From: Rhodosporidiobolus odoratus
Taxonomy: Eukaryota; Basidiomycota; Microbotryomycetes; Sporidiobolales; Sporidiobolaceae
Assembly: GCA_034387635.1 (NCBI GenBank)
Contig: JAOANU010000024.1
Coordinates: 179,962 to 243,961, forward strand
Reading direction: 5' to 3'
Length of the DNA stretch: 64,000 nt
Shown: positions 42,061 through 64,000 of the stretch, piece by piece
Layout: the number at the start of each line of letters is the position of its first letter
Numbering within the stretch: position 1 is the stretch's first letter
Notes under the pieces: generated by a model
Seen by the model: the letters and a program-made list of their open reading frames with translations, nothing else
What the model was told of the DNA's origin: nothing
The model's database searches: none
Position numbers and translations under genes: made by a program

Positions 42061-42250
42061 AGGTAGTGACAAAGTGGGTTCTTCTGTCCCTCCCTATCTT
42101 TCCTTTCCTTTCGGTTCCCCCCTCCCCCCCCCCCCCCCCCCCCTTTTGTTCTGTTGTCGTGCTTGCCTTTTTTTTCCCGCTACCTCCTCCCCTCTCTCTT
42201 GTAGTCTACATGGGCCAAGGGCCCAATACAGACTCCAGATTTGGAATAAA

Positions 42251-42656: not shown

Positions 42657-42765
42657 GCCCCCAGGGTGGATCGAACACTCGACCTCGGCATACCTAGGTC
42701 AAGAACACACGCGCGCGCGCGTCTTGATGTACGAGTGCCGCGCTCTGCCACTGAGCTATAAGGGC
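42657..42765 (-). tRNA. tRNA-Thr(CGU): tRNA-Thr(CGT) with 38-nt intron
   Basis: On the minus strand the acceptor GCCCTTA pairs with TGGGGGC. The D arm is GCTCAGTGGCAGAGC. The anticodon stem CGGCA/TGCCG brackets CTCGTA + intron + A, giving anticodon CGT. T arm GAGTG-TTCGATC-CACCC has one A-C mismatch. The intron contains a CG-alternating run and a CAAGA/TCTTG hairpin, and includes ACG able to pair with the anticodon. A TTTCTTTT terminator follows the 3' end. Confidence 0.9.
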
Positions 42766-42885
42766 TAGCTGTGCCACCTGGACCGCAGTATTACGTATAA
42801 GTACGTTTAACGTGTAGGATGGACAGGGCCCGCCCTGGCCTATTGCAGGGGCCCGTAGAAGCAGATACTCTGGGTGAGACCATCT

Positions 42886-43457
42886 TAAAGAATGCATCCG
42901 ACAAGAGTCGAGGAACTTCGGGGTCGGGTGCCGGTCTCCGATACGGTTTGGGGATTGGAGAGCCGACCCCGACATGGATGCCAAAATGGAGAGCTGGTTT
43001 CCCGACTTCTCCCCGAACTGCCATACGCATTCTCTGCTGTGTGGGTGTTGTGCAAGTAGATAATGGGTTTTTGTGACCCTCCCAGCAACCTCTGGCCAGT
43101 CTGAGAGTGCGTCTACGGACCCGCAAGCGACTCCGCGGACAGCAAAGGGACCGCAGATGACCTTCTTAGGTAGTTCTTTTTTAGGTTAACGTCTTTTCTC
43201 TCTTCTGTAGCTGTTCTTGGGTCTCTTGCAGATGATGGCTTCCTTCACCTCCCCGCTTTGCTGCTCACGTTGATTTTCTGGGAGCAGAAAGACACTGTTT
43301 CACCTTTTTCCCAATTTTGCCAACATGTCGGGCCGAGCACTGACACTTCCGGGAATCGGGAGCCCGCTCCCCGACCTTTCCCCGACCGACAGATCAGCCC
43401 CCGGAAAGCCTGACATCCCGAGTCGTCGGCGGTCCGGGAGTCGGTGAGCATTCTCTA
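42886..43457. mobile_element. Non-autonomous hAT element, 572 bp
   Basis: The ends TAAAGAATGC and GCATTCTCTA match the TIRs of the hAT at 7,986-9,228, and both subterminal regions (about 140 and 300 bp, CCCCGA-rich) match it in inverted orientation. The transposase region is deleted. Flanks GACCATCT and GACTGTCT agree at six of eight positions, a decayed TSD. Confidence 0.8.
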
Positions 43458-43980
43458 GACTGTCTGGTTAGTCCCAACAGCATGTGGGCTTTATTGAACC
43501 CCTACAAGCACAACTGTCATTGTCTATGTCCCTTCTTCTTCAACGGATGAGGCAGGGTTGCTTCTGTGGGGCAACCTACCAGCTCGACTGCACGTGGTCA
43601 GGCGGTCCAGCACTGGCAGGTGATGCTGGGCAAAGCTAGAAGAAGTCTATAGTCCTTGCTCAAGCAGTGTTGACATCCTGTCCAGGAGGGAGGAATAGAA
43701 AACCCAGAAAAGAGCAAAGAAGAGCCGGCAGAGAGGGATCAAAGGGGACATCTCAAGCTTTGGACATGCTTGTGTGGTAGCAGCTCAAGCGGTGAACCTT
43801 GCCTGAGCTGATACACTGTGTCTTCATGCTTGTCCCTTCCCCCTGTGTACCAGGCACAACCAGCCACAGAAATGGCAAGCACTGCCGTTTCCTCCTGTCT
43901 GACATCCAGTCTCTGCTTCTCTGATGCAAGGTTGTGTCCTGCAGAATATCTCTGGCATTGTCCCCCCTTGCAGAAAGGGA

Positions 43981-44006
43981 GGGGGGGGGGGGGGGGGGGG
44001 GGGGGG
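43981..44006. repeat. 26-nt G homopolymer in left arm
   Basis: Uninterrupted G run; the mirror position in the right arm is a longer C run (63,169-63,203). A second short G run lies near 44,125-44,134. Confidence 0.95.
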
Positions 44007-44909
44007 AAGAACTCTGGGGCACTAAAAGGCCATGCTGTGATCTTGCTGATACTCTCGTCATATAGTGCTAGTGAGTCATGCTTGCTAGACTTGTGTGGAA
44101 CAGCAGACTGCCTGAACTTGTTGTGGGGGGGGGGGAACTTGAACTATGCGGTACGGCAAAGAGTGGCTGTTTTCTGAGCTGGTCTCTGCTGTTTGAGGCT
44201 GAATAAGCTGTCAGAGCAAGTTTTGGGCAGACTGACAGCTCTAGAGCCAGCAGACTGGGGAGGTGGGGAAACCCAGGAAAGTTCAGCAAGCCACTTTCTT
44301 GGTTGCAAGTCACAGTGGATGGCACTAGCTGTCTGGCATCCCAGGACTTGTGCAGCCGTGTATGGGGGAGAGTCTACACCCAATGGAGTAAGCTGCAGAC
44401 CTTTGGCCCTCCCCCTTCACAGGTGCAGAGAGGTGGTTGGACTGGTTGGTTGATTGGTTAATTGAGTGATTCATCTGGATAGCTTTTAAGCTAAACCAAA
44501 TCAGTGTCAGGCCTACAGAACTTGTATGTTGATTGGACACCTCGGAGACATCTTGGAAGACAGGAGCATAAGCTGACGACAACCTCGATCACTGTCAGCT
44601 TAACATGGAGAATGGTAGTGTATGCAAGGCTTCTCAGGCAGTACAGACGTCCAAAGCAGCTTGGACTGAGCTCACCTTCTGCGTGTCTCTGGTAGCAGCA
44701 GGAAAAGTGCGACCTACAATGGTGGCCATCAATGAGACTGACGTCTTGTAATCAGAGCAGGTGCAATTGCATAGGCAGGTCATGTCCAAGGGCAGGAGGA
44801 TAGCACCCTAAATGTACCGTTGCCGGATCAGTTTGGCGTCCATAGCTGCTATATAGCATGTACGCAGCGGACTGCGAAAGTCATGCCCACTGTGGGCAAA
44901 AGAAGAACC

Positions 44910-45009
44910 GACCAGAGCAGGATTTGAACCTACGCAGGCATAGCCTATGAGATAAAGAGGCCTGAACAGGCATTCTAGTCTCACTCCTTAACCGCTCGGA
45001 CATCTGGCC
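44910..45009 (-). tRNA. tRNA-Ser(AGU-box: AGA): tRNA-Ser(AGA) with 19-nt intron, left arm
   Basis: On the minus strand GGCCAGA pairs with TCTGGTC. D arm TCCGAGCGGTTAAGGA; anticodon stem TGAGA/TCTCA around CTAGAA + intron + A, giving AGA. Long variable arm AGGC-TAT-GCCT marks a class II tRNA. T arm GTAGG-TTCAAAT-CCTGC. A TTTT terminator follows within 15 bases. Confidence 0.93.
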
Positions 45010-45703
45010 AGTGTGCTAAATTCTTGCGCTTCAGTATCTATATATAACTGCATATCGTTAAAAAGCCTAAGGACCAACTTCGGTCTTTCTCAACTCTTTT
45101 CTACAGCAGGAGGCAAGACGCACCACTGCAACCAGAGAGCAGCTAGAGAGAGAGAGCAGCCAGATTATCCCAAAGCTTGCTATAGCAAAACGGGACACCA
45201 GCCTACAGGTGGGGAAGCTGGCCAGTCAGAAGATAGGGTCAGAGTGGAAGAAAAAAAGGGGAACAACAGCTACACAACAGGGCATAATAGCCATGATTGC
45301 GTTTTTAATGGGTTCATGCTTAGGTGTACTGGTTGACATCATGTCCCATGGTGCACAATCCCGGCAACCGGCACAGAAACCGGGCTCCCGTGCCAATCGC
45401 CCAACGTCAGGGAGACTACCAGTATGTTTCCCAGTATTGGGACTGACAGTACTGAGTCGCTCAGGTCAAGTCCCTATGAGAAGCAAGCACCTCAGCACCC
45501 AGTGTGTCCTCAAAGAAGAAGGGAATCCACGGTATATACGGATGTACCTTCTGATAGACACCCCTGCCGGGGCATTGTCACCAAGGTCTTCCCACTTTGG
45601 GGTCTGCTTGATGCTCCTGCATTATAGCATGCATGGAGTCCACCCCACCATGTGCAGGACGGGCTAAGCAGCGTGATGTATAAGGAGAAAGTATGGGCAG
45701 CAG

Positions 45704-45829
45704 TAAGCTCGACACAAGCTCCTCCTGATGAGCATTACCTTTGATTGCAAAAAAAACCCCCAAGTGAGCGTCAGTGAAGGAGGAGCTTATCGCAAACCCC
45801 CGGATTCTGCGTGCGTGAGGGGGGGTGAT
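45704..45829. repeat. Hairpin-forming short repeat A, left arm
   Basis: About 126 bp starting TAAGCTCGACA. It contains inverted AAGCTCCTCC and GGAGGAGCTT about 60 bp apart, then AAACCCCCGGATT and a G-rich end. A diverged copy (about 80% by eye) lies inverted at 46,412-46,531. Confidence 0.7.
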
Positions 45830-46411
45830 CTTCACGACTTTATTTTGCTCCTTCCGCTCTCACAGCTTGCTTAGAAGGAAAACGGTTTGTTGTAGCGACT
45901 CTTCCATGTGGAACAGCTACTGCCACCTCCAATCTTGAACCTCCAGAAGGGCTACAGCAAGATCAGAAGTGCAAAGTCAGTGGCGGGCAGCCCCCTTCTC
46001 CTCACCTGTCAGCGCTTTTGCATCAGAGCTTTCGGGCTCCAGAGCCTCTCAGAACTATCTGTGACAGATTGCAAGACGTGCAGCTCCACCAGAGCTCAGT
46101 GTTGAACTAGCCAAAAATGTACGTTGTCAGTCATCAGCAGTGGGTGGCAGAGGGGCTTACGCGTGACACTGAGTGTGTCAAGGGGCTCGAGAGAGTACAC
46201 AACAAGCCCTGGTACGTGCTCAGAGCGACATGTGGCCTTGGAAAGCAGCTGGAGGGGAACCGGACAAGAAAAAGGCCATTGTCTCAGGCTCCTTACACTT
46301 GTTGTACGCCCTTGCTGAGCCTCCTAGACGTACCCAGGTACTGTCTGAACAGATACAGCCAATTTATAGCTCAAAAGGCGGCAAATGACAAGTGTATGCG
46401 TGCGTGGAGAA

Positions 46412-46531
46412 ATCACCCCCCTCGGCACGCGGAATCCGGGGGTTTCCGACAAGCTCCTCCTACGCTGGCACTCACTTGGGGTTTTTTATTTGTGGTCGAA
46501 TGCTGATTGGGAGGAGCTTATGTCGAGCTTA
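46412..46531. repeat. Hairpin-forming short repeat B, left arm
   Basis: Inverted, diverged copy of repeat A, with the same AAGCTCCTCC/GGAGGAGCTT pair and CCGGGGGTTT block. Confidence 0.7.
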
Positions 46532-46892
46532 GGGCAGCAGCATTTCGATAAGCAATGTGGAGCCTAGTTATTTGTGTCAACTGCTGCTGCAGTGTACCCT
46601 TTAAGCAATGTACAGACTCTGCTGCACAGGGCCTACACATGTGTGCACACTCTGCTGACTGGAGAAAGCCAGTGTACACCATGTGCATCTGGCTTTTGTG
46701 TATGAATGTGAGCCCATTGCATTTCATCGATGTTATGGGTGCCTTTGGCTTTTCTAGGCTTTGAGCGCTTTGATTCCATCTGTGCACATTTTGTTGGACG
46801 AGCTCGCAGGTCAGCAGAAAACTAGACACGAGGCAAGACGCGCAGGATAGTTGTAGCTTTATATACAGCACTGTATAAATTCTAGCATATCT

Positions 46893-46985
46893 GCCCCTAT
46901 GGCTCAGTGGTAGAGCGTTCGCCTAGTAAGCAGCTTAGGCTCTTATTGGAAGCGAAAGGTCCATAGTTCGATCCTGTGTGGGGGC
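46893..46985 (+). tRNA. tRNA-Thr(AGU): tRNA-Thr(AGT) with 22-nt intron, left arm
   Basis: GCCCCTA pairs with TGGGGGC. D arm GCTCAGTGGTAGAGC; anticodon stem TTCGC/GCGAA around CTAGTA + intron + A, giving AGT. T arm CATAG-TTCGATC-CTGTG. TTTTTT terminator at about 46,991. Confidence 0.94.
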
Positions 46986-47217
46986 ACTTCCTTTTTTCTG
47001 CCTGCTTCTCCTTTTTGTGGTCAATTGCGGATCAGCTCACCAACTGCCCAACCAAGCAAGTGCTGACAGAAAAATTGACAGTAAGCTATAGGAACCCTTC
47101 TCAAGGGTAGGTTTGGACATCCCAGCAGGACCTGGGCAGTCCACTCTCACGCGGGTCTGAATTATGGACAGGCAAAAGGATGGGCAATCCTGAGGCTTTG
47201 CAGAGCTGGCCAAAAGT

Positions 47218-47299
47218 GATCGCACCCAGGCTTGAACTGAGGACCTTATCCGTACATGAGATGTTAAGGATACGTGATGACCAACTACACCATGCAACC
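47218..47299 (-). tRNA. tRNA-Val(AAC): tRNA-Val(AAC) with 9-nt intron, left arm
   Basis: On the minus strand GGTTGCA pairs with TGCGATC. D arm GTGTAGTTGGTCATCAC; anticodon stem TATCC/GGATA around TTAACA + 9 nt + C, giving AAC. T arm CTCAG-TTCAAGC-CTGGG. TTTT follows the 3' end. Confidence 0.93.
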
Positions 47300-47336
47300 G
47301 TTATATACGTGATGACCAACTACACCATGCAACCGT
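47300..47336 (-). repeat. Tandem duplicate of tRNA-Val 5' half, left arm
   Basis: Directly upstream of tRNA-Val the block from GGTTGCATGG through ATCACGTAT is repeated once, giving an extra A-box-containing 5' half without a 3' half. Confidence 0.85.
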
Positions 47337-48852
47337 TATATGCTGTAGAGGGAGCTTGTAGTCTATATGACGTGCTGTTTTTTATTTCTAGAAGATTTCT
47401 ACAAAATCTAGGCAAACTCTGCACATATCCAATCGCAGTCCAAGTGCACATGGCCGCCCTCCAGGTGTCCTCTCTCATAGCCAATACAAGCCCTCGTCAC
47501 ACAATGCAAGGAATTCGCAGACCAGAAGCTACCAGAGAATGTTTATATATCCTCCCTTGCGCTGCTTCTAGTGAGCTGACAAGGAGTGACCTTCCCCATC
47601 AGCACTACAGTCCGCACATTTCTGGACAAGTGCATTTCAGCAGAGGCCTCGTTGCACCATGCTGTTCAAAGGAGCTTAGTGGGCAAGTATACATGGGAAC
47701 TTGCCCTCTGCTGCATAAAGTGTCTTGCTTGTACTGACATCAAGTTTTTAAGCAAGCTCAGACATCATCAGGATGGACAACTAGACTAACCTTGACATCC
47801 AGAGGGCCACGTTGAACCTTCCCAGACTGCTTCGGTACCATACACAGGGGAGACTCAGCACCTGCATTTTGTTGGTTTTTGCTGTATCCTGTAATTGCAG
47901 AGTAGCTATTGTCAGGTTAGCCATTGGGAGCAAATTGAGGTGCACAGGCATTTGTCAGGTTTTCCCCGGCGCATTGTCAGAACGCAATGTATGGTCCCAT
48001 TGCAACTTTCCCAAAGCAGATGTGCCCTCTTGACCAAAGATACACCGACCCAGCAAGCTGACTGCTGAGGGGCTCTGAATATCCATAGATTCTGAACAGC
48101 TGTTGTGCGCAATTTTGTGAAGTGCAAAGTCCCTGCAGACTGGGGTCTGGTGGCTCAAACGTGTATGTGTACATTCAAGCCTGACAAGCTTTGTGGGCTT
48201 TGATTTGTGGGTGAGTGGCTTCAGCCTTTTGCAGGTGGGGTGTGCATCTGAGGCCACAAAGGGTGTCCACTCCATCAAGGTCTTGCTCTGCCAGGTCTTT
48301 CCCACCCTGACTTTCATACCCCTTGCTGATACTGCAATTCTGACTATGTCATTCAGACCTACAATTCAGTGGCCCCACACTTGGTGAATGGTGCAAAAAC
48401 TCTGCTGTTTGAGCCCGACAGCACACCAGCCTCCACTATCCCCTGTGTCATAGTACAGACCATGTCAGCGGAATGAACTACCTTGCCCAGCTTGTCACCA
48501 GCTGCTCCCAGGGCACAGTACATCAACTCACTGTACCAGAAACACCCTGGCTGACAGAGCGTGATCAAGTCTGACAGGATAATGCTGCTAGCTACTGTTC
48601 TGCTCAGCTTGTGGATAGTTTGGTTCCCCTCTCCGCGTGCATTGCAAGTGAGTAATTGAGACAAAAAGAAGCAGAGGCAGTCAGCAAAGTGGAGACACAT
48701 GGGCAGATGATCACAGAGCAGGCTTTGTTTTTCTCTCCTCTGACAGGCTGATTGCGTTGAATGTACCAGCTATTGGTTGTTCTGTGTTCTGTATCTGCCC
48801 ATGAGATAGCCTGACCAAGATTGGTCATGTGATAACACCGAGACTGGTGCTC

Positions 48853-49026
48853 CAGTAGAATCTCTGTATCAGGGAACTATACATGAGGAACAATTAAGTA
48901 CACGGAAACAGATGCTGGGGACCATGTCCACTTCTTATAGGATATCCATTTATGTTCAAGGAACGATTGCTTACAAGGAAAACCCAGAGTGACTCCTGTG
49001 AGTTTCCCTGTAACGAGTTTTTACTG
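48853..49026. mobile_element. Degenerate pogo/Tc1-like MITE (tentative)
   Basis: The left end CAGTAGAATCTCTGTATCAG and the reverse complement of the right end CAGTAAAAACTCGTTACAGG are similar to each other and to fungal pogo-type termini. The flanking TA is not intact. It sits at the left edge of the unique core. Confidence 0.4.
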
Positions 49027-51866
49027 TGAAGGAACACAACATCAGGTTGCGGCTACTTCCACATGTTTGCCTCTCCCAGCCTGACTTCAGAGCCCAGATG
49101 TGGCCAAATACAATCACAGTTGTATTTTGCTGCAGACTTAGCATTGTTAAATCAGACCTCCGGTCCCCCAGTGCCCATCAGATCTGCACATGTCACAGGC
49201 TCCTGAGCAGCAATAAGGCTACAAACAGCCCACAGGCACTTCACAGCTGCACCACCAGCTAGAGTATGCTTCCCCATCCCCTTTGGTCCCGTCGGACGGC
49301 GACATCAGGGCAGAAACCCTCGTTTTGACCAACTAAATCTCATCGGGGACCGGGACTCCGTCATCCCCGTCAAAATGGGGAAGGCGGGGTCGAGACAGGA
49401 GAAAAAGGTGAAATGCAGGGTGCAATTGCCCCACTGTGATCCTACCTCCAGACAAGACAAGCAGGACGGAACGAAGGGCTTGAGAGACGCAGTAGAGGGT
49501 GTACAGCCTGCAACCAGTGGGACACTACAAGCAGTGTGCACAGTTTTCTCTTGATTGAGAAAGTCAAGTTACCGGCTTGCCTTTGGCTTGCATGTGGGCT
49601 CTGGTTAACCTCCAAGCTGAATAGCAGGCTCCAATTGTACTAAACAGGATATATCACAGTCTGGGGATGTGCTGGAGATACGTGTGCGTCTCTAGAAGCT
49701 GCAGACACCTCTTTCGACCTCAGGGGTTCAACGTGCCCCTTCCGGTCATTCAGCAATTCTCTACGGGGTAAGCTGGAGGGACTGGGCCCCGGTGATCCTG
49801 TCTAACCGGGGCAATAGGTGCCTGTTCCATTTGGGCACAGTTGACCGGGAAGGCAATCTCTACCACCAGCTTGGACATGCTGCTTGTCATGGAGGAGTAC
49901 CTGTATATGTTGTCCACTATCAAACATATAACCTTGTCCGATGCACTATTGCCTCATAGCAGTGCTTTTTGCCTTGCGCTGTGGAACTGAGGTGAGAGAC
50001 TGCAAAGTTGCGTCACATAGAGCAACCTCTGTAACAGCGAGCCTTCTTACAGAGGTGCTGTACTGCACACCGCTGTTCAGTGTGCTTCTTTGAGGACTTC
50101 ACTCATCTTGTTGGAGCATCTGAAGGGTAGTAGCAAGCTTGGAAAGCACTACATAATTGTATGTTCTGCGTGATCAGGATTGCATTCCAATTAGTCTGGC
50201 ACGGAACGGGGATCAGTAATGTGACTGCCTTCTAGCGGGCATCTTGTGCCCAACAATCCCAGATCAGGCTGCGCTCTGCACCCCGGGCCCAATGTAAGGC
50301 CTCAGTTTCAGCAGCCTACGCCAGCTGGCACCTGCCACTGGAATGAACCCTACTCAGCATCTGCCTGGCACCATGTCGACAAAAGAGCCCTGCCAATGCA
50401 CAATAGCTGACAGAGATGTGCAGCGTGCTATCTTTTGAGATGCACTAGCAGTGCTGACAGCAAGTCATTGGGGCAGCGCAGTCAAGTCTCCTGCTTGAAG
50501 CGTCCGCAGGTGCAGGCCCATGCAGCAGCCACTTTGATGTTCCTGAACACGATGCTGCACCCTTTTTACAGCTTCCATTTCATCCTCTACTGTGAAGAGT
50601 GAGGTACAGAAAGTTGAAGCCCAGGCAATCAAACACCCTTCAGACCACCTGTTCACCACCCCCATGTGTGAGGACTCAGTGACTAGACAAGCATGCAGCT
50701 TCATCTACATGGAAGGCGAATCTCTCCGCCAACACTGAGCGACAGCTAAGGAGAACCGAGATGTATTGCTGGTTCAATCCGTCAGCAAATGCGTAAGGAG
50801 CGAACCAGAAGCTCTGCTCCATTCCCAGCTCCATCACTAAACTTCACTTCTTCCGTTCCCCCTATCTGCATTCCTCCGCGGCTAAGGCCTCCAGCCTTAC
50901 ACTACATTGCACACTGCAACACACAAAACCTTGCAGCCCCGGTTGGTTCTGCCCTTGTAGACACCTCCGAACATACCCATGCATGGCTATACAGGAACAA
51001 CTGTTCAGTTGCCCACTCGCCAGACAAGTGACTGGACAGACCATGAGCTGGACCTTAACTGCTGGAACCAGCAACTTTGAGCCGAAGCGAGGCCGCGGTG
51101 ACAGCGATAGATGCGCGAGGAAGGGGTACTGTAGCTAGGAGTGCTCTCGTAGCGAAGGTAACAGTGACGAGACCCTCGTTGCGAAAGCTGAAGCTAAAAG
51201 AAGAGAACACAATTCTACAGATATCGCTCTCCACATGTTGACTGAACGTCTACCCGCCGTTGTCCTTTGCCGTCGATGTCGGGAAGGGCTGCAATAAAGG
51301 GAAAGAGGCAGCAACTAACAGGAGAGCCAGAGAAGTATAGAATTGGACTCAGCTCGAAAGGTAGGGAATCCTAGCATTGACCCTATAGTGTGAGCCATCT
51401 AGTCACCCACCCATGCTCCAGCTTAGATCAGCCCATGCTGGTCACTTTTGTTGTCTTGTTGTTGATTTGATCGTGAATTGAGCCAGAAGATCCGGAAAAC
51501 CCCCGAGAAACTGAGATTGGCACGTGCAGTGTGAGCAAACACAATCAAAACTAGTCATTACAGAATGTCTGTTGTAATGCCCAATTTGGGTGATATACTT
51601 ACACTTGCTTACACACTGTCTATCTTGACACTGAACAAGCTTGAGGGGTGGAAAAAATTTGCACTGCCATGTCCACGACATTTTCTGATTACCTTGTCCA
51701 GGCTATGTCCACCAGATTTGAACTGGTCAACCTTCTCCTTCAAGATTGAAACGGTGGGACATTGTGGGAACGGCAAGTGGCAGAGGGGTGGCCGGCTAGA
51801 CAGCTCACACCGTAGAGCCATGTCAGTTGCAATTATGGATACATTAAAATGCTTGGCCAGTACCGC

Positions 51867-51958
51867 GGTGTTTTGGCCGAGCGGTCTAAGGCGCTAGCTT
51901 AAGGCTCTTATGGAGTTCGCTAGTCCGAAAGGGCGTGAGTTCGAATCTCACAGACATC
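51867..51958 (+). tRNA. tRNA-Leu(AAG): tRNA-Leu(AAG) with 13-nt intron
   Basis: GGTGTTT pairs with AGACATC. D arm GCCGAGCGGTCTAAGGC; anticodon stem CTAGC/GCTAG around TTAAGG + intron + C, giving AAG. Class II variable arm TCCGAAAGGGC; T arm GTGAG-TTCGAAT-CTCAC. Terminator TTTT at about 51,965. Confidence 0.93.
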
Positions 51959-52206
51959 ATTACTCTTTTGCTGCTGCACCGCACAAGCCATCAGTACAAG
52001 GCAGATACTTTTCGTGTAGAGTGGTCAGGCAGCCTGCTTGAACAGGGATTGTGTTATGACATGGTGCGGGCAATAAATGCCCTGCTAAGAGCAAATATCT
52101 GTGCTCCCTACACTACTCGAGATACTACTTGGGGGGAGGGGGGGAGTGTGTACGCAACTGACACGGAACAAAAGCAAGGACGTGGACATGTGGCAAAAAA
52201 AAAAGG

Positions 52207-52288
52207 GGCCTAACCGGGGTTTGAACCCGGGACCTCCTCCAATCAGCTCGCGCCCTAAGAAGGAATCATACCACTAGACCATCAGGCC
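52207..52288 (-). tRNA. tRNA-Pro(AGG): tRNA-Pro(AGG) with 11-nt intron
   Basis: On the minus strand GGCCTGA pairs with TTAGGCC. D arm GTCTAGTGGTATGAT; anticodon stem CCTTC/GGAGG around TTAGGG + intron + T, giving AGG. T arm CCGGG-TTCAAAC-CCCGG is perfect. A run of ten or more T follows. Confidence 0.92.
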
Positions 52289-53509
52289 CTTTTGAGAGAG
52301 AGCCTTACAGTGTAAATATATACATACGTTTTTGGCCACGTCGTGATGGCATCATTCCCTATACATGAGAGACACATTGGGAGATCAGGTTCTTGCTTCT
52401 CATAGAGCAGCAGTTCTTACAGAGGTCGATGTGTGGCTGTTCTTAGGAAGTCTGTTCACCTGTATCATAGCTACTCTGTGAAGCCAGCATAGTGAGGTCA
52501 AGATTGAAAAGGCCAACTCTGGGGTTGGCTGCAAAGCTCTTTCCCAACACTCACAAAGTCTCTCTGTGTAGTGTGAGGGCCTCTACAGCATGATCTGGGT
52601 TGCAGAAGTCTGCTCTGGTGTGTTTCAAGACCCTGCAGTTGACTCCAATCCCTTACACCAACCAGCTGTGCCTTTGCACAAACAGCTCCAAACAGCAGTG
52701 ATGTGGGCAATGCCTGAATATGCGACAACTGAGCTGCTCATACACTGCCCACTCTGCCTCAGTGCTCAGGCCTACCAAGTTGCCCTGCGCAAGGCTAAAA
52801 TCCCATGCCGTTATGAGAAACTTTGCTCAGATTCAGCTATTTTCTGCTCATAGCAGTGCTTTGTGCCCCACTTCATAGGACGGGGGTGGGAGACACCAAT
52901 ACTGCTTCTCATAACCAACAGATTACATATAGAGCATTCTTATAGAGGGAATCTACTGTCATTAAAGGGCTGTCCTTGCTCCACAGTCTGCACCCTCAAG
53001 GTGGGCTGTGCTCACCTACCAGCATGTCCGTGAACCATTTACCTTTGCATGTTTATAGCAGCGTAGGATGCTCAGCAGCTCATGTTCAAAAAAGCCCACT
53101 TCTTGTACTTGGCAGACAGCTCATTGCTTTCAGATCTCAGAGTCCACTGTCAGTGTATGGTACAGGCATCCTAACAAAATATTGCCTGGATAGCTAGCTC
53201 AGCTGTGGAACAACAATCTACCCCACAAGGGAGTTCCCAGGAGCCACTCCCGATGGGGCTGACAAGCAAGATCACTGTGCATTGGAAAAAAGATATACCC
53301 AGTCTCGATGAGACCAACTTGCTTGCAGCCCCTTGTCTTGTACCGTAGGATGCTCCCTCACACTGCCCTTAAGAGGGACGGTACTGCACTTTAGCGTGGT
53401 TTGGTTCCTGCAACGGCTGGCATTGGGCAATCAAGCAGACAGCCGGTCCTTGGGACAGCAAATGAACACAGGCTGCTTGGGTTAGCCCAGAACAAAAGCA
53501 AAAGTCAAT

Positions 53510-53594
53510 GCTCAGTGGCGGGATCGAACCGCCGACATTGGACTAAATGCCCAAAGTATTAGGTCCACATCATAACCAACTAGATCAACCGAGC
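53510..53594 (-). tRNA. tRNA-Ile(AAU): tRNA-Ile(AAT) with 12-nt intron
   Basis: On the minus strand GCTCGGT pairs with ACTGAGC. D arm ATCTAGTTGGTTATGAT; anticodon stem TGGAC/GTCCA around CTAATA + intron + A, giving AAT. T arm GGCGG-TTCGATC-CCGCC. TTTTGCTTTT terminator. Confidence 0.93.
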
Positions 53595-56249
53595 TATTGG
53601 GGATGACAGCAAAAAGATTTGAGATATGAAATATACGGCCTGCGGTCGGAAAAATGCTCAGCTTATCTGAACCCACAGCAAACCATGTTGGGACTGTCGG
53701 CAATGTGTGATGCCTAAAGTCACTGGCACACAGTAATGTCTGCAGTGTCTCATCTGGTCTAAGGGAAGACAGGGAGGATCTACACCAGATCATGAAGCAC
53801 TCAAACTGGATTTGGGACCAAGATCTTGGCCGCCTGCTACTACATAAGATAGGAGCAGACGACATATCCTATACCTAGAGCATGTCTCTTGGATGCTTGA
53901 TCATGGTCCCTTTTCTGCTAATTGGTACAGCTGCTCAGGCTCTGCACAGCGAGCCCCTCCTGAACGGCTTCAGCTGGCAATCACCTGGCAGCCAGAGGCT
54001 GGAGTATAGCGCTACAAAGTCTACAGCTGTGCATGTGGTGGACCCCGACGGAGTTGGGTAACACGCTCTGCATCACCTATGACAGCCAATCCTGACTGAT
54101 GAGCCTGTGTCTCGTCGAACCATATCTTTGTATTGATGTTTCAGGAAGAGCACACTTGAATGCTGATCCAGTATGACCAAGGTACACCAGGACACCCAGT
54201 GCTCAGGTATGATCCTCGTCAGCGCATTTTCAAGCAGTGTCAATTGCTTATTCTTCCCTATTTGATGTCTGGCAACTAATACAGTCAAGTTGTCAGTGTG
54301 CCTAGGCCTGTTCAGCACAACATCCGTTTGTCTCAAGCTTGACCAATCGCGTACCAGGCCTACAGAAGTCTCATGTCAGCTGGAGTGCCCCAGTGAGGTC
54401 TTCATGGGTAGAGCAGTAATATGCACACAAGAGAGAAGAGAGGGATTTTTTTCTTTTTTCCCAGAGTGGATGACACAAAGTTGTAGGGTACTTGTAGATG
54501 GGAAGAATTAAGAGCCAGTCCTGAAGTCCGCTGCAGCTTCAGATCCTTCCTTTCTTCCTTCTTGACACTCTCATACTGCTTGGGTTCCGGGTCGTGGCAG
54601 TTACAGGTGCGCAGCATCCCGCAGTGCTTGCAGAGGCACTCCGGGTCAGGATCAGTGAGCAAGGAAGTGTGTCATAATGCTCAGGTCATTGTAATTGAGG
54701 CAGAGGGTGGTATGGAGCACAATTAGGCAAGAGCTAGAAGGGGTGATCAGAGTGATGAACAGGGATGAAGGGGAAAGGGGACAATGTGGCAGGGGTGGGT
54801 GCAAAGGCACACTGCAGCAAATGCTGGGAGACAGGTAGCCAAAGCCTGCTCTGTGATCATCTGCCCATGTGTCTCCACTTTGCTGACTGCCTCTGCTTCT
54901 TTTTGTTTCGATTACTCACTTGCAATGCACGCTGAGAGGGGAACCAAACTATCCACAAGCTGAGCAGAACAGTAGCTAGCAGCATTATCCTGTCAGACTT
55001 GATCACGCTCTGTCAGCCAGGGTGTTTCTGGTACAGTGAGTTGATGTACTGTGCCCTGGGAGCAGCTGGTGACAAGCTGGGCAAGGTAGTTCATTCCGCT
55101 GACATGGTCTGTACTATGACACAGGGGATAGTGGAGGCCGGTGTGCTGTCGGGCTCAAACAGCAGAGTTTTTGCACCATTCACCAAGTGTGGGGTCACTG
55201 AATTGTAGGTCTGAATGACATAGCAGAATTGCAATATCAGCAAGGGGTGTGAAAGTCAGGGTGGGAAAGACCTGGCAGAGCAAGACCTTGATGGAGTGGA
55301 CACCCTTTGTGGCCTCAGATGCACACCCCACCTGCAAAAGGCTGAAGCCACTCACCCACAAATCAAAGCCCACAAAGCTTGTCAGGCTTGAATGTACACA
55401 TACACATTTGAGCCACCAGAGCCCAGTCTGCAGGGACTTTGCACTTCACAAAATTGCGCACAACAGCTGTTCAGAATCTATGGATATTCAGAGCCCCTCA
55501 GCAGTCAGCTTGCTGGGTCGGTGTATCTTTGGTCAAGAGGGCACATCTGCTTTGGGAAAGTTGCAATGGGACCATACATTGCGTTCTGACAATGCGCCGG
55601 GGAAAACCTGACAAATGCCTGTGCACCTCAATTTGCTCCCAATGGCTAACCTGACAATAGCTACTCTGCAATTACAGGATACAGCAAAAACCAACAAAAT
55701 GCAGGTGCTGAGTCTCCCCTGTGTATGGTACCGAAGCAGTCTGGGAAGGTTCAACGTGGCCCTCTGGATGTCAAGGTTAGTCTAGTTGTCCATCCTGATG
55801 ATGTCTGAGCTTGCTTAAAAACTTGATGTCAGTACAAGCAAGACACTTTATGCAGCAGAGGGCAAGTTCCCATGTATACTTGCCCACTAAGCTCCTTTGA
55901 ACAGCATGATGCAACGAGGCCTCTGCTGAAATGCACTTGTCCAGAAATGTGCGGACTGTAGTGCTGATGGGGAAGGTCACTCCTTGTTGCAAACTTCGAA
56001 GAAGATTTGCTCTTACCATGCCTCCCCCCCATGCTCAGGTGTGTGCAGGCACAGGAACAGGTTTCTCCACTCTCTCCACATCGGGGTTTTCTTAGTCTGC
56101 TTCAGAATTGAGCTTTTGCTCTCTGCCAGATAGAGCTATGGCTTCTGCTGCTCGGTACAGCAGAGGTTATAACCTCTTGGTGCTCCACTGCTTGTCTGGA
56201 AAGGAAGGACCAGGTTGAACAGAGCAAGCAGTACATTCTGCTCCTGTTA

Positions 56250-56956
56250 CAGTAGGGACACTCTATAACAACCATCCCTATAAAAAATGCCACTCTGTAA
56301 GAACCAGAAAGTCAGTTTCCCATGCCCGTTGTATGGTGCCAGGATCAAAACAGCCCTATAGGGAACAAACGGCTGAGGGGGGCAAAAGTTTGTTATACCG
56401 GGTTACAGTATAAGAGGCTATAAACAAAAAAACTGTGTGTACCAAACCGATGGTGCAGTTGGTAGTCGACGGATGTTCTTTTATTGTGGCTGAGCCGCCT
56501 TTTTGGCCTCCATGACAACTAGCCGGTTCATTTCACGCACGGGCCAAGAAGAGTGAACACCCTTTTTGCTTGTCTCTCTCTTCTCTCATCTATACCACTG
56601 CCTTGTCTCAATGCTCAAAGGCTTGCAAGCATTGTACTCGAGCTGTGACAGTCTTTGTAGGCACTTTTAAAAAGTCTCGACATAGTGGAGTGAACCGGGT
56701 TCGAACCCTTGACCTCGGACTTTCCTTTCTCTCTGCACTTACGCCTTACCCGGCGGGACTCAGTGAGATACAACCTTCCCAACTTCAAGCTCATTTTCCT
56801 CGGTCTGTACACTAGCCAGCGCAGAACAGAGACAAGTTGTCGAGGAATCAGAGCAAGGGCTACAATTTGGTATAGGTCAACCTTTGTAATAAATGCCACT
56901 CTGTAAGGAACAAAGATCCCTCAAACCAATGTGTTCCTTATAGGGTGTCCCTACTG
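56250..56956. mobile_element. Tc1/mariner-type MITE, copy 2
   Basis: 707 bp, almost identical to 27,816-28,522 and in the same orientation, with TA on both sides (56,248-56,249 and 56,957-56,958). The 13 bases to the left (TCTGCTCCTGTTA) are also shared with copy 1, while the right flanks differ. Confidence 0.88.
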
Positions 56957-57117
56957 TACCCCGCTCTAGAGGTTGACCTTCTCAACTGGCCTGTGTCCCA
57001 GCTTGAACTGCCTGAGCTGGGGAGACTGGCACATATGTCGTGCACTGCAGCAGATGCAACAAGTAAGACTGCGCAGCAAGCGAAGCGAGCTAGCACTTCC
57101 TGATTGTGACAATACTG

Positions 57118-57165
57118 TTTTTCCTCTTCTGCCACTGTGACTTTTTCCTCTTCTGCCACTGTGAC
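57118..57165. repeat. 24-bp tandem duplication
   Basis: TTTTTCCTCTTCTGCCACTG plus TGAC occurs twice in tandem. No known role. Confidence 0.85.
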
Positions 57166-59834
57166 TTGGCTTTGTGCTGCACAGTACTCTTCACTTCATG
57201 CCCAGGTAAGCTAGTTCTTACTAGCCATTACACTTCACTGCACAAATCCTCATCTTTGGCGATCAATTCCATCTTTTGTCTTGCCTCCTCATCCTCACCT
57301 TCCCATGTTGAGGAGTCCGAGAAACACAGCTGACTTGGGGCATGGTGTGTGATTGGGCTGGACTTATCGGATGAAAGTGGCTTTGCTCCTGTTCCTTCTG
57401 TAGCTTTAGCAATGTTGCTTTCTTTGCTGCTGCAAGGATTTGCTCTCCTCGCACTTCAGTCTCTCCGCTTCTAAGTCTCATTTCGCTTCTTGCCCTCAGT
57501 AGTACTTCCTGATCCATCCCCCTTGCGCAGTATCCGTGTCTTCCCCACTGGTATATGCGTGAAGAGGAGAAGTAGATGGATCATTCAACTGAGGGTGGAC
57601 TTGTAGCATACTTTGGCCTTCTCTTTCTCTTTAGCGCTCTACACCCCTATCTCTCCTGTTGTACGGAATACACCCGGTTCACTATCCTTGGTTCCGATCG
57701 CCCTCGCCGTTACGCTCCGGCTCCATCCCTTCAGATCCTCCCGCAAGATCCCTGTCCTCGTCGCCCGACTTGAAGACGGTGCCTCTTGCAGCTGCCATCC
57801 TTGCTGCCCTTTTCCCCCCACCTCACCTATGCACAGCTCCTGTCCTTCATTGATAGGAGTACTACAACAACTTGCATGGTCAATGTTGCTCATGGTCAAT
57901 GTCTTCGTCATCCTGTCACCACCTGACAACAATACAGCAAGGCTGGCTTCTTTTACAGCACGTGACATGCATAGTCACTAACATCAGGGCACACACATTG
58001 TCAGCATATCGCTGTACCATCTGTGTGACCCTTCACATGATCTGTTGTTTTTGAAGTGCTGAGCTTGCGGGGTATGTCCAGATTCTTGTCCTGCACTTAT
58101 TCTGATCCAGAGAGTCACATAGCTGCTCTATGGCCTGTCTGATAGACGCCTACAGGGCAGCAATAGACTTGCCTACAGGGCAGTGATGGACTGTACCTCT
58201 ATATGGCATGTGCTGGATTTGCAAAACATACATGGTGATGCTATGTAAGTATGGTGGACTGTTGAAGTGATAATGTATCCTTTCGTGGCAGCATAGTATG
58301 GCAAAAGCTGCACCTTTCTCCTTTTGTAGGTTGAGTATTAGAGCTCAACCTCCCAAGCGTGTTGTACAACATGCCACAGGCTAGAAAAGCTGCCCATTGT
58401 TGTGACCTTCTCGGCCTGCTTACCTTCCTTCCACCCCAAGCTTGCATGCATGATTGGCCACTACCAATGTCAGCAGCTTGTTGTACGTTAGCTCTCATTG
58501 GTTGTCCTGCAAAACGTTTGGGTTGTGGGGGAGTGCCAGAAGCAACCCTCTCCCTGCCTTTGTTCTCTTGTTTCTTCCTGGACATACTGGGCACTTCACA
58601 GTGTACCCACAGGTCTCTTAAGGTTTCTGACACGCAAATTATCTGTTCCATAAGGTCCACAACTACCTGTCAATGCTTGCCTCTTTGCAAGGTGCAGCAT
58701 TTCCTCCTTGGCCATGGCACAAAAGGTGATCAGGACTTATTCAACAATTCAAGCAGTGAACCCAGCAGTAAAGCAGCTCTCTTACCAAGTACTTCAAGGT
58801 TTGGTAATGCCAGAGATTGGCAAAGTCAGTTCATAGTTCAAGCCCAGTCAGCCGTTGCTGAATCCACCAATGTTGACTGCACGGGAGGCCAGGAACTTAG
58901 CAGGAAAAAGGAACAAGTCGAGTAGAACTAGCCTAGCAGAGCGCTCGCAGTGAGAATTTACAGCGTGATAACTCTTGTTGCCATAGCTATATAAAGGAAT
59001 CCAGAGGGAAAAAAACAAAAAAAGGCACTACACAAGTTGCCTTGGTCATCATAACCCCATTAGCTCCGTCACACACTTGAGTAGTCAATAGGCGGGTAGA
59101 GCTGTAGTAAGGCAAAGCGATTGCAACCAGTCCCAAAGGGAAAGCCAAAAAAGAAAATAAAATAGGAAGGAAACAAGACTTGACATATGAGGGTGTACTA
59201 GGGGATGGTTATCCTAGCAACCGCGACGGTAGTCCTTCTCTCCTGACTTCCCATCACTGACTGCCGAACACAAGATGTATGCCAGGACTTCGCGCTAGAA
59301 CCCAATTTACCTGCCCAGTGTCCCCGGTAGTCTCTTTCACATGTTGTTCATAACAGCCCATGTGTGGTTACTCAGTAAACACTGCAAGATAGGGTAGGTG
59401 AGGTAGCTCTGTGATGTCAAAGGCTGCCAGGACTTGGCCATACCATAAGATTCTCTCCCATCAGATTCTGTACATTGCCTTGGCTCCATGAGATCATGTC
59501 CATCGCAGCAAGTATCTCCTGGGGTCATTGAGCCCATTCCTGGCAAGGTTGCGAAGTTTGCACTGCCGCTTGTCGGCATTTCCCCCAGTCATCAGCTCAC
59601 TAGAAGCAGCGCAAGGGAGGATATATAAACATTCTCTGGTAGCTTCTGGTCTGCAAATTCCTTGCATTGTGTGACGAGGGCTTGTATTGGCTATGAGAGA
59701 GGACACCTGGAGGGCGGCCATGTGCACTTGGACTGCGGTTGGATATGTGCAGAGTTTGCCTAGATTTTGTAGAAATCTTCTAGAAATAAAAAACAGCACG
59801 TCATATAGACTACAAGCTCCCTCTACAGCATATA

Positions 59835-59871
59835 ACGGTTGCATGGTGTAGTTGGTCATCACGTATATAAC
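59835..59871 (+). repeat. Tandem duplicate of tRNA-Val 5' half, right arm
   Basis: Mirror of 47,300-47,336, so the duplication predates the inverted duplication or was homogenised with it. Confidence 0.85.
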
Positions 59872-59953
59872 GGTTGCATGGTGTAGTTGGTCATCACGTA
59901 TCCTTAACATCTCATGTACGGATAAGGTCCTCAGTTCAAGCCTGGGTGCGATC
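59872..59953 (+). tRNA. tRNA-Val(AAC): tRNA-Val(AAC) with intron, right arm
   Basis: Mirror of 47,218-47,299, same 82 bp and fold, with TTTT after the 3' end. Confidence 0.93.
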
Positions 59954-60185
59954 ACTTTTGGCCAGCTCTGCAAAGCCTCAGGATTGCCCATCCTTTTGCC
60001 TGTCCATAATTCAGACCCGCGTGAGAGTGGACTGCCCAGGTCCTGCTGGGATGTCCAAACCTACCCTTGAGAAGGGTTCCTATAGCTTACTGTCAATTTT
60101 TCTGTCAGCACTTGCTTGGTTGGGCAGTTGGTGAGCTGATCCGCAATTGACCACAAAAAGGAGAAGCAGGCAGAAAAAAGGAAGT

Positions 60186-60278
60186 GCCCCCACACAGGAT
60201 CGAGCTATGGACCTTTCGCTTCCAATAAGAGCCTAAGCTGCTTACTAGGCGAACGCTCTACCACTGAGCCATAGGGGC
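60186..60278 (-). tRNA. tRNA-Thr(AGU): tRNA-Thr(AGT) with intron, right arm, T54-to-C variant
   Basis: Mirror of 46,893-46,985 but the T loop reads CTCGATC instead of TTCGATC. This changes the nearly universal T54 and the B-box core GTTCGA to GCTCGA. It may be weakly transcribed or a pseudogene. Confidence 0.85.
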
Positions 60279-60639
60279 AGATATGCTAGAATTTATACAG
60301 TGCTGTATATAAAGCTACAACTATCCTGCGCGTCTTGCCTCGTGTCTAGTTTTCTGCTGACCTGCGAGCTCGTCCAACAAAATGTGCACAGATGGAATCA
60401 AAGCGCTCAAAGCCTAGAAAAGCCAAAGGCACCCATAACATCGATGAAATGCAATGGGCTCACATTCATACACAAAAGCCAGATGCACATGGTGTACACT
60501 GGCTTTCTCCAGTCAGCAGAGTGTGCACACATGTGTAGGCCCTGTGCAGCAGAGTCTGTACATTGCTTAAAGGGTACACTGCAGCAGCAGTTGACACAAA
60601 TAACTAGGCTCCACATTGCTTATCGAAATGCTGCTGCCC

Positions 60640-60759
60640 TAAGCTCGACATAAGCTCCTCCCAATCAGCATTCGACCACAAATAAAAAACCCCAAGTGAG
60701 TGCCAGCGTAGGAGGAGCTTGTCGGAAACCCCCGGATTCCGCGTGCCGAGGGGGGTGAT
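60640..60759. repeat. Hairpin repeat B, right arm
   Basis: Mirror of 46,412-46,531. Confidence 0.7.
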
Positions 60760-61341
60760 TTCTCCACGCACGCATACACTTGTCATTTGCCGCCTTTTGA
60801 GCTATAAATTGGCTGTATCTGTTCAGACAGTACCTGGGTACGTCTAGGAGGCTCAGCAAGGGCGTACAACAAGTGTAAGGAGCCTGAGACAATGGCCTTT
60901 TTCTTGTCCGGTTCCCCTCCAGCTGCTTTCCAAGGCCACATGTCGCTCTGAGCACGTACCAGGGCTTGTTGTGTACTCTCTCGAGCCCCTTGACACACTC
61001 AGTGTCACGCGTAAGCCCCTCTGCCACCCACTGCTGATGACTGACAACGTACATTTTTGGCTAGTTCAACACTGAGCTCTGGTGGAGCTGCACGTCTTGC
61101 AATCTGTCACAGATAGTTCTGAGAGGCTCTGGAGCCCGAAAGCTCTGATGCAAAAGCGCTGACAGGTGAGGAGAAGGGGGCTGCCCGCCACTGACTTTGC
61201 ACTTCTGATCTTGCTGTAGCCCTTCTGGAGGTTCAAGATTGGAGGTGGCAGTAGCTGTTCCACATGGAAGAGTCGCTACAAAACCGTTTTCCTTCTAAGC
61301 AAGCTGTGAGAGCGGAAGGAGCAAAATAAAGTCGTGAAGAT

Positions 61342-61466
61342 CACCCCCCCTCACGCACGCAGAATCCGGGGGTTTGCGATAAGCTCCTCCTTCACTGACG
61401 CTCACTTGGGGGTTTTTTTTGCAATCAAAGGTAATGCTCATCAGGAGGAGCTTGTGTCGAGCTTAC
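61342..61466. repeat. Hairpin repeat A, right arm
   Basis: Mirror of 45,704-45,829. Confidence 0.7.
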
Positions 61467-62160
61467 TGCTGCCCATACTTTCTCCTTATACATCACGCTG
61501 CTTAGCCCGTCCTGCACATGGTGGGGTGGACTCCATGCATGCTATAATGCAGGAGCATCAAGCAGACCCCAAAGTGGGAAGACCTTGGTGACAATGCCCC
61601 GGCAGGGGTGTCTATCAGAAGGTACATCCGTATATACCGTGGATTCCCTTCTTCTTTGAGGACACACTGGGTGCTGAGGTGCTTGCTTCTCATAGGGACT
61701 TGACCTGAGCGACTCAGTACTGTCAGTCCCAATACTGGGAAACATACTGGTAGTCTCCCTGACGTTGGGTGATTGGCACGGGGAGCCCGGTTTCTGTGCC
61801 GGTTGCCGGGATTGTGCACCATGGGACATGATGTCAACCAGTACACCTAAGCATGAACCCATTAAAAACGCAATCATGGCTATTATGCCCTGTTGTGTAG
61901 CTGTTGTTCCCCTTTTTTTCTTCCACTCTGACCCTATCTTCTGACTGGCCAGCTTCCCCACCTGTAGGCTGGTGTCCCGTTTTGCTATAGCAAGCTTTGG
62001 GATAATCTGGCTGCTCTCTCTCTCTAGCTGCTCTCTGGTTGCAGTGGTGCGTCTTGCCTCCTGCTGTAGAAAAGAGTTGAGAAAGACCGAAGTTGGTCCT
62101 TAGGCTTTTTAACGATATGCAGTTATATATAGATACTGAAGCGCAAGAATTTAGCACACT

Positions 62161-62260
62161 GGCCAGATGTCCGAGCGGTTAAGGAGTGAGACTAGAATGC
62201 CTGTTCAGGCCTCTTTATCTCATAGGCTATGCCTGCGTAGGTTCAAATCCTGCTCTGGTC
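62161..62260 (+). tRNA. tRNA-Ser(AGA): tRNA-Ser(AGA) with intron, right arm
   Basis: Mirror copy of 44,910-45,009, the same 100 bp with class II variable arm and 19-nt intron. T-rich terminator GGTTCTTCTTTTG follows. Confidence 0.93.
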
Positions 62261-63167
62261 GGTTCTTCTTTTGCCCACAGTGGGCATGACTTTCGCAGTC
62301 CGCTGCGTACATGCTATATAGCAGCTATGGACGCCAAACTGATCCGGCAACGGTACATTTAGGGTGCTATCCTCCTGCCCTTGGACATGACCTGCCTATG
62401 CAATTGCACCTGCTCTGATTACAAGACGTCAGTCTCATTGATGGCCACCATTGTAGGTCGCACTTTTCCTGCTGCTACCAGAGACACGCAGAAGGTGAGC
62501 TCAGTCCAAGCTGCTTTGGACGTCTGTACTGCCTGAGAAGCCTTGCATACACTACCATTCTCCATGTTAAGCTGACAGTGATCGAGGTTGTCGTCAGCTT
62601 ATGCTCCTGTCTTCCAAGATGTCTCCGAGGTGTCCAATCAACGTACAAGTTCTGTAGGCCTGACACTGATTTGGTTTAGCTTAAAAGCTATCCAGATGAA
62701 CCACTCAATTAACCAATCAACCAACCAGTCCAACCACCTCTCTGCACCTGTGAAGGGGGAGGGCCAAAGGTCTGCAGCTTACTCCATTGGGTGTAGACTC
62801 TCCCCCATACACGGCTGCACAAGTCCTGGGATGCCAGACAGCTAGTGCCATCCACTGTGGCTTGCAACCAAGAAAGTGGCTTGCTGAACTTTCCTGGGTT
62901 TCCCCACCTCCCCAGTCTGCTGGCTCTAGAGCTGTCAGTCTGCCCAAAACTTGCTCTGACAGCTTATTCAGCCTCAAACAGCAGAGACCAGCTCAGAAAA
63001 CAGCCACTCTTTGCCGTACCGCATAGTTCAAGTTGCTCCCCCCCCCCCCCCACACAACAAGTTCAGGCAGTCTGCTGTTCCACACAAGTCTAGCAAGCAT
63101 GACTCACTAGCACTATATGACAGGAGTATCAGCAAGATCACAGCATGGCCTTTCAGTGCCCCAGAGT

Positions 63168-63168
<1 letters not shown>

Positions 63169-63203
<35 letters not shown>
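63169..63203. repeat. 35-nt C homopolymer in right arm
   Basis: Mirror counterpart of the G run at 43,981-44,006, differing in length. Confidence 0.95.
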
Positions 63204-63500
63204 TGGCTCCCTTTCTGCGAGGGGGGACAATGCCAGAGATATTCTGCAGGACACAACCTTGCATCAGAGAAGCAGAGACTGGATGTCAGACAGGAGGAAA
63301 CGGCAGTGCTTGCCATTTCTGTGGCTGGTTGTGCCTGGTACACAGGGGGAAGGGACAAGCATGAAGACACAGTGTATCAGCTCAGGCAAGGTTCACCGCT
63401 TTGGCTGCTACCACACAAGCATGTCCAAAGCTTGAGATGTCCCCTTTGATCCCTCTCTGCCGGCTCTTCTTTGCTCTTTTCTGGGTTTTCTATTCCTCCC

Positions 63501-64000
63501 TTGCAAGGGCTGGACAGCCTTGCCGAACCGACTCCCCCGAATAAGCTGAGTCGTTTCCTATTTTTCCGTTTCTACATCTCTATATATCTTTCGAACTTGC
63601 GTACTGAGTTCCCTTACCATGCAGCCTGCGTCCGGACTTCTACCCTACTCGGTCATCTCGGAGGTAGAAGTTGGATCAACGTGCATGAGGGAGCTTGGTT
63701 GTAGTTGGAGTTCGCTTCTCTTCTTCAGGCTACATCTATCCCTCTCTATTGTCGAATACTACGCCCGAATCACTGTTTGTCTCTCTCGTAGCCGGAGAGT
63801 TCCAGTCTCGCGCGCCCTCCCGTTCGACATCTCCTCCCAGCGGCTCGTCGTCTGTCTTCACTCCCCCTCGAAGACGGTACGGCTTGCAGTTTTTTAACAG
63901 TCGAGCATTTGATTACCTCGTCTACCATTTCCGACCAATCCTCTCTCTCTTCCGGGCTTGCCTCAGCCCACTCTTCCCATTTGTCGTTGATCGACCCTCT
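63501..64000. other. GC-richer right edge, possible start of a gene or retroelement
   Basis: Sequence leaves the inverted repeat after 63,500 and becomes C/T-rich like gene promoters in region 1. A TATATAT lies at about 63,578-63,588, and an ATG at 63,619 opens MQPASGLLPYSVISEVEV for about 90 codons, with no recognisable domain. Coding status is unresolved because the window ends. Confidence 0.3.

Follow-up and report, generated by a model that had tools for sequence, protein, structure and literature searches.

A probably silenced, tRNA-bearing palindrome island, probably one of a genome-wide class, in Rhodosporidiobolus odoratus

Results and discussion

Two inverted repeats that carry transfer RNA (tRNA) genes and enclose a sequence without genes raise the question of what such a locus is: a centromere, a block of silenced chromatin, or a by-product of the tRNA genes themselves. 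The locus considered here lies in Rhodosporidiobolus odoratus at the end of contig C24 (JAOANU010000024.1; 243,961 bases), in a eukaryotic assembly of 24.8 Mb and 45 contigs. We analysed the final 64 kb of this contig (C24:179962-243961), hereafter the window, and give positions in window coordinates unless a contig prefix (C2, C9, C26 and so on) is shown. A preliminary description had proposed a regional centromere. From sequence comparison, we consider that the locus is probably a silenced tRNA palindrome island and one member of a genome-wide class; the genome-wide pattern of mirrored tRNA pairs is more surprising than the single locus.

Arms, core and tRNA genes of the island

Self-comparison of the window, together with the continuation on contig C26 described below, defined the following parts (unstranded).

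42000..43691, outer part of the left arm, mirrored on C26
43687..48727, left inverted arm
48728..54839, core; no credible gene, GC (guanine plus cytosine) content 0.50, mostly present as an inverted copy on C26
54840..55987, right inverted arm, inner part
59592..63501, right inverted arm, outer part; resumes on C26 beyond a long terminal repeat (LTR) element

The arms match at 99.1% identity between 43687-47579 and 59592-63501, and at 99.0% between 47579-48727 and 54840-55987, with 26 substitutions and 5 indels across 5,039 aligned bases. A 3,604-base insert interrupts the right arm at 55988-59591. By comparison, 50 kb of C23 taken as a control contained no inverted self-match of at least 60 bases at E 1e-8. 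On entering the island, GC content drops from 0.57 to about 0.50. The longest open frame of the core (120 codons) was compared with 20 shuffles (mean 147, maximum 231), and that of 42.3-64 kb (208 codons) also falls within the shuffle range (mean 174, maximum 274); ten chosen frames of 111-208 codons matched no Pfam family at E 0.01.

ARAGORN in eukaryote/intron mode found ten tRNA genes in the island part of the window, three in each arm, three in the core and one outer tRNA-Thr, of which a bacterial-mode scan caught three. Rfam at its gathering threshold confirmed six of the ten (the arm Ser and Pro pairs, the core Leu and the outer Thr) and did not confirm the arm Thr-AGT pair.

42656..42765, - strand, tRNA-Thr (CGT), outer left arm; ARAGORN and Rfam; mirrored at C26:3257-3366
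44908..45010, - strand, tRNA-Ser (AGA), left arm; ARAGORN and Rfam
46893..46987, + strand, tRNA-Pro (TGG), left arm; ARAGORN and Rfam
47216..47299, - strand, tRNA-Thr (AGT), left arm; ARAGORN only
51867..51959, + strand, tRNA-Leu (TAA), core; ARAGORN in both modes and Rfam
52205..52288, - strand, tRNA-Pro (AGG), core; ARAGORN in both modes
53509..53594, - strand, tRNA-Ile (AAT), core; ARAGORN eukaryote mode, found untyped in bacterial mode
59872..59955, + strand, tRNA-Thr (AGT), right arm; ARAGORN only
60184..60278, - strand, tRNA-Pro (TGG), right arm; ARAGORN and Rfam
62160..62262, + strand, tRNA-Ser (AGA), right arm; ARAGORN and Rfam

These results confirm several points of the preliminary description: mirror arms with three tRNA genes each round a core of about 6.1 kb, arms that differ by point changes and a block of 3.6 kb, and no credible protein gene between about 42.3 and 63.5 kb.

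The palindrome continues on contig C26

The right arm ends at an LTR.

63502..63888, + strand, LTR; partner at C26:1943-2329 (99.7%), joining C24 to C26

On C26, a G-rich tract stands before the LTR, and after it come the same five bases that precede the LTR on C24; the left arm displays the uninterrupted site of this insertion. One LTR element is split between both contigs and has a 5-base target duplication. We conclude from these sequences that C26 directly follows C24 and that the assembly gap lies inside one retrotransposon. Past the LTR, the palindrome resumes: window 43691-42000 recurs in reverse complement at C26:2330-4013 (98.7%) and window 29884-29027 at C26:4006-4862 (99.3%); the nested LTR elements that separate these two stretches in the window are missing there. 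Further on, C26:13123-19005 is an inverted copy of core positions 54432-48683 (98-99%), followed by a piece of arm, so that a mirrored duplicate exists for most of the core. The core had been called unique, which does not hold, and it carries three tRNA genes itself. The extent given previously, to 63.5 kb, needs revision at its right limit, which is only an LTR insertion 500 bases short of the contig end. The joined scaffold measures about 519 kb plus the gap and places the island in its interior, with about 208 kb of C24 on one side and about 254 kb of C26 on the other.

We also considered C26 as an allelic haplotype of the window and rejected this, since C26:7-50 kb has no match of at least 60 bases to window 1-27.7 kb.

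The island is depleted in CpG

The observed/expected (o/e) ratio of CpG dinucleotides is lowest in the inner right arm (0.21); the left arm has 0.37, the outer right arm 0.40, and the core and the C26 copy 0.41 each, against 0.97 in both gene flanks. Among control 1-kb tiles, 1 of 95 falls under 0.6 and the 5th percentile is 0.74. Low ratios recur in other islands (C20, 0.40; C32, 0.36; C2, 0.61; a piece of C9, 0.58), and TpG/CpA is in excess (1.32-1.63) in the arms, the core, C20 and C32. Of the 59 transitions between copies, 24 affect CpG sites, which account for 5-18% of C/G according to segment. CpG depletion with TpG/CpA excess is what long cytosine methylation would be expected to leave behind.

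A two-state segmentation, with the depleted state trained on other islands and the normal state on window 1-27 kb, returned two main depleted spans, window 43444-63521 and C26:10467-21031. Smaller pieces lie at 42198-42670, on C26 between 3.4 and 8.1 kb, and at the left end; one 544-base piece inside the C26 gene part was also flagged.

27702..29338, unstranded, left end of the CpG-depleted sequence

We read these as one domain of at least 57 kb across C24 and C26, a reading that joins separate pieces and allows for about 14 kb of young retroelements. The CpG decay, with its sharp changes, indirectly supports a heterochromatin-like island.

Domain edges were compared with tRNA positions in six long stretches, leaving out five segments under 1 kb and three edges at contig ends or an LTR; these edges describe CpG content, not CENP-A. 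The four tRNA genes that lack a mirror partner (on C26, C23, C32 and C2) all lie within 520 bases of a domain edge, with a nominal p of 4e-5, or 0.003 if tRNA genes are assumed to lie in or near such domains anyway. The preliminary description had offered a heterochromatin island with tRNA boundaries as an alternative; its island part is upheld indirectly by the CpG decay, while boundaries are suggested for these four edge genes and were not seen for the mirrored interior ones.

Piwi-family pieces on C1, C2 and C11 indicate that an Argonaute-like gene is likely to be present. A Pre-SET search gave no match, and neither did its controls, which makes it uninformative.

Mirrored tRNA pairs recur across the genome

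A search of the assembly with RF00005 listed 62 tRNA matches (63 of 573 candidates scored), which we grouped into like pairs by equal or near-equal score or known type, entered by hand. Among the matches listed, adjacent like pairs within 50 kb were inverted in 20 of 20 cases, the window Pro pair included, and direct in none; 38 of the 62 belong to same-contig mirror pairs or triplets. Similarity hits of tRNA size gave 14 inverted and three direct pairs, two of the inverted ones (C9, C3) being shared with the RF00005 list. Mirror pairs occur on 18 contigs, several of which have more than one.

For 22 inverted pairs, about 1 kb was read round each member. The mirror match reaches at least 350 bases in 19 of them (89-100% identity) and is only tRNA-sized in three (C10:1402, C18:219/227 and C8:899/941); over all pairs read, the window's own excluded, 23 of 26 reach at least 350 bases. 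The arms measure at least 2,555 bases on C20 (99.8%), 1,820 on C32 (99.8%) and 781 on C2 (99.9%), and a tRNA-Gln pair on C24 matches over 353 bases at 84%. Pairs at C1:1727943/1729402, C17:103/120 kb and C9:167/189 kb, and further C11 pairs, were left out of this reading. A B-box pattern, with 377 matches against 221 for the reversed control, was too noisy as a tRNA map.

The CpG state of these loci varies. Ratios of 0.62 or less lie near the mirrored tRNA genes of C43, C3:636 kb, C5:72 kb, C14:462 kb, C9 (152-164 and 70-88 kb), C42, C11, C20 and C32, as well as in parts of C2 and on C24/C26. Ratios of 0.78 or more were found at C8 (two pairs), C10:1402, C3:1574, C17, C18:194/219, C5:1345 and C24:13-33 kb, with C7, C14:159, C10:1224, C6 and C18:227 in between. 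Strongly depleted pairs occur on 11 contigs, only C9 having more than one. In titles and abstract openings of the open-licence literature, we found no description of genome-wide mirror tRNA palindromes in a basidiomycete.

Some of these loci have features of their own. At C9:152134-164500, a palindrome is identical (100%) at two places about a common axis near 158.3 kb, and its mirrored parts, each with two tRNA-Leu genes, spread over 4.3 kb or more. The pair at C6:1159401-1164200, which we counted, matches the window tRNA-Thr at 96% and contains no tRNA by ARAGORN; these are possibly pseudogenes kept in a palindrome. The tiny contigs C42 (14,254 bases) and C43 (12,178 bases) have CpG-depleted mirror tRNA pairs and are possibly unplaced fragments of other islands.

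Tracts without substitutions within the island

Copies of the core differ by 26 substitutions over 4,931 bases, and their longest substitution-free run of 2,935 bases was reached in none of 5,000 random placements. In the main arm segment, the longest such run is 1,566 bases (p 0.0044). We take these tracts to suggest gene conversion in part of the island.

Mobile elements

Besides the LTR shared with C26, the window contains the following elements.

27803..28524, unstranded, 722-base dispersed element; second copy at 56237-56958; first copy within the left end of the CpG-depleted sequence
29881..41999, - strand, LTR retrotransposon; LTRs at about 29881-30252 and 41626-41999, 5-base target duplication
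55988..59591, unstranded, mobile-element insert, in the right arm only; smaller elements inside; relatives on C4, C15, C29 and others

A second LTR retrotransposon is nested in the element at 29881-41999, at about 34991-40603. The nested elements are missing from the mirror copy on C26, where the site is empty, and are undepleted in CpG (o/e 1.18); the outer retrotransposon is young. The LTR-retrotransposon nest reported left of the arms is borne out by LTR pairs, frames and target duplications. On C26, an RNase H frame (C26:4948-6501) has its end overlapped by a fragment at C26:4858-5343, which from this frame we regard as resembling a long interspersed nuclear element (LINE). Besides an array on C7 considered below, the LINE-like fragment forms a second tandem array at C4:1553573-1565745, with units about 3.96 kb apart. 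An integrase map placed retroelements at many sites on most large contigs and singled out no single site per contig.

Weighing the explanations

In the explanation that we prefer, a silenced island within a genome-wide class of tRNA palindromes, the domain would be long-silenced heterochromatin with cytosine methylation, and gene conversion between mirror copies would keep the arms and their tRNA genes alike. RNA polymerase III (Pol III) and TFIIIC on the tRNA genes (tDNAs), chiefly those at domain edges, would limit the spread of silencing, as at cen1 of Schizosaccharomyces pombe, where the tDNA barrier requires both (PMC2040200). The island may also be the kinetochore site of this chromosome. 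Several observations weigh against this explanation. CpG depletion is absent or mild at about half of the mirror loci, so that a palindrome need not go together with silencing. Interior tRNA genes mostly leave the CpG decay unbroken, and a barrier role of the mirrored ones was not seen; the edge rule concerns four genes with a 520-base limit set post hoc, and overall it holds for 5 of the 22 tRNA genes and for 5 of the 19 edges. For the inner arm segment, the substitution-free run reaches marginal significance (p 0.047), and three of the six segments show none (p 0.09-0.74). On C10, two like tRNA matches 64 kb apart (C10:1338489 and 1402489), slightly over the 50-kb limit, are in direct orientation, as are the third copies on C3 and C18 relative to the first.

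A regional centromere, with the kinetochore on a core copy and the tRNA arms and retroelements as pericentric heterochromatin, is nested within this explanation rather than exclusive of it, and we rate it as a serious possibility that falls somewhat short of an even chance. The layout of inverted repeats, tRNA genes and core resembles fission yeast, retroelements are present, and the domain is interior to the joined scaffold, hence not subtelomeric. Among the matches listed, the LINE-like fragment forms one cluster per contig on 10 contigs (C26 included, and C32, the query's own); on the eight contigs of known length other than C26, all clusters lie less than 100 kb from a contig end (combined p 0.0005). 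On C7, 12 listed units about 1.85 kb apart (1097545-1118442), each bearing this fragment, are enclosed by mirrored tRNA-Lys genes (1092388 and 1130583). Of the 17 mirror pairs on contigs over 500 kb, 8 lie within 130 kb of an end against 4.0 expected, a lean towards contig ends (p 0.027; limit set post hoc). The LINE-like list, however, comes from 39 scored candidates out of 75 and lacks even the place of the query itself; C26 has other retroelement integrases at 125-129 kb and 181 kb, C23 has CpG-depleted segments without a mirror pair, and two strongly depleted sets lie on C9, about 64 kb from each other. Mirror tRNA pairs are also too numerous, far above one per contig. Recurrence of the structure many times per chromosome had been named beforehand in the preliminary description as a refuting outcome; the pairs are indeed many, yet only about half of their loci are strongly CpG-depleted. 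A neutral origin, in which replication forks stalled at tRNA genes switch template and yield inverted duplications, and mobile elements pile up where genes are absent, with no function beyond the tRNA genes, appears unlikely. It would fit the inverted orientation, a common rule regardless of tRNA type, GC content and CpG state, and the spread of mirror identity from 84 to 100%, which suggests many ages or unequal conversion; alone, it predicts neither the sharp CpG changes near some tRNA genes nor near-identity kept across decayed sequence. The position at a contig end, and the LINE-like clusters near contig ends, might suggest a subtelomeric repeat island, which is very improbable given that the palindrome resumes on C26, which extends for about another 254 kb and carries genes from 22 kb onwards; the pattern (TTAGGG)3 is absent from the assembly, and telomeres and chromosome ends are thus neither placed nor counted. 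Arms 99% alike on a contig that ends here could likewise arise from an assembly fold-back or collapsed haplotypes. This is the least credible explanation: the arms carry different insertions, their substitutions are clustered, a matching 5-base target duplication spans two contigs, the core copy lies in another setting, and C26:7-50 kb is unlike window 1-27.7 kb and so not an allelic copy. The preliminary description likewise argued against a simple fold-back from differences between the arms.

More broadly, many tRNA genes of this fungus may lie in conversion-maintained palindromes that mark and bound cytosine-methylated islands without genes across the genome, with centromeres on a subset, a generalisation that we put forward as doubtful. 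If true, tRNA palindromes would be a general device of heterochromatin domains rather than a peculiarity of centromeres.

Relation to known centromeres and tRNA clusters

Centromeres of the Cryptococcus type have retroelements, a long gene-free stretch and decay of the methylation type, all of which the island shares; a long gene-free region rich in retroelements, as in basidiomycete centromeres rich in transposable elements, is present here. The island differs in its palindromic arms with tRNA genes, which to our knowledge are not a feature of Cryptococcus-type centromeres.

Like the island, the regional centromeres of Schizosaccharomyces combine a central core, inverted repeats, tRNA genes and retroelement remnants (PMC6538654). 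Clusters of tRNA genes lie at transitions and extremities of these centromeres, the transitions being marked in this way in S. octosporus and S. cryophilus; each of these two species also has one centromere with head-to-head core repeats (PMC6538654). The island has the core between inverted repeats and the tRNA genes in the inner repeats of the fission-yeast type. Across S. pombe, S. octosporus and S. cryophilus, centromere regions hold about 32% of the tRNA genes (PMC6538654), whereas the 38 of 62 listed matches here are spread in mirror pairs or triplets over many contigs, several per contig. By this analogy, the island may work like a fission-yeast-type centromere but cannot be filed as one. 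Inverted repeats round a mid core are also found in Candida tropicalis, where arms resemble each other more within a site than between sites (PMC4741521). Repeats and cores of that species are similar on all chromosomes (PMC4741521), unlike the left arm here, which beyond C26 matches other contigs only in tRNA genes and pieces under 170 bases (all 39 candidates scored); homogenisation of arms across chromosomes was not found in this search. Clustered eukaryotic tRNA genes resemble the present loci in having several copies of one tRNA near each other (PMC2888827). In that survey, which counts clusters rather than pairs up to 50 kb apart, most adjacent tDNA pairs are parallel and the antiparallel pairs of Cryptococcus favour head-to-head orientation; the like pairs of the present genome are inverted, and most have long flanks that are mirrored too.

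In fission-yeast centromeres, the role of tRNA-bearing inverted repeats is hard to separate from centromere identity. The same layout, recurring with differing arm identity and CpG states, could show which part (palindrome, tRNA genes or retroelements) goes with silencing and which with the kinetochore, and the mirror islands form a ready set of centromere candidates.

Flanking genes and minor observations

The nearest gene frame left of the CpG-depleted sequence encodes a GNAT acetyltransferase (26754-27434), and a Rad4-like frame lies at 3401-4624 in the gene part of the window. On the right, where C26 was read to 50 kb, the genes begin with a ribonucleotide reductase starting at C26:22052; a SET-domain protein frame lies at C26:41064-43067, 20 kb off the island. 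In the outer left arm, inverted fragments at 42886-43457 are 84-92% alike to the gene region 7986-9228, which looks as though part of a neighbouring gene had been copied there.

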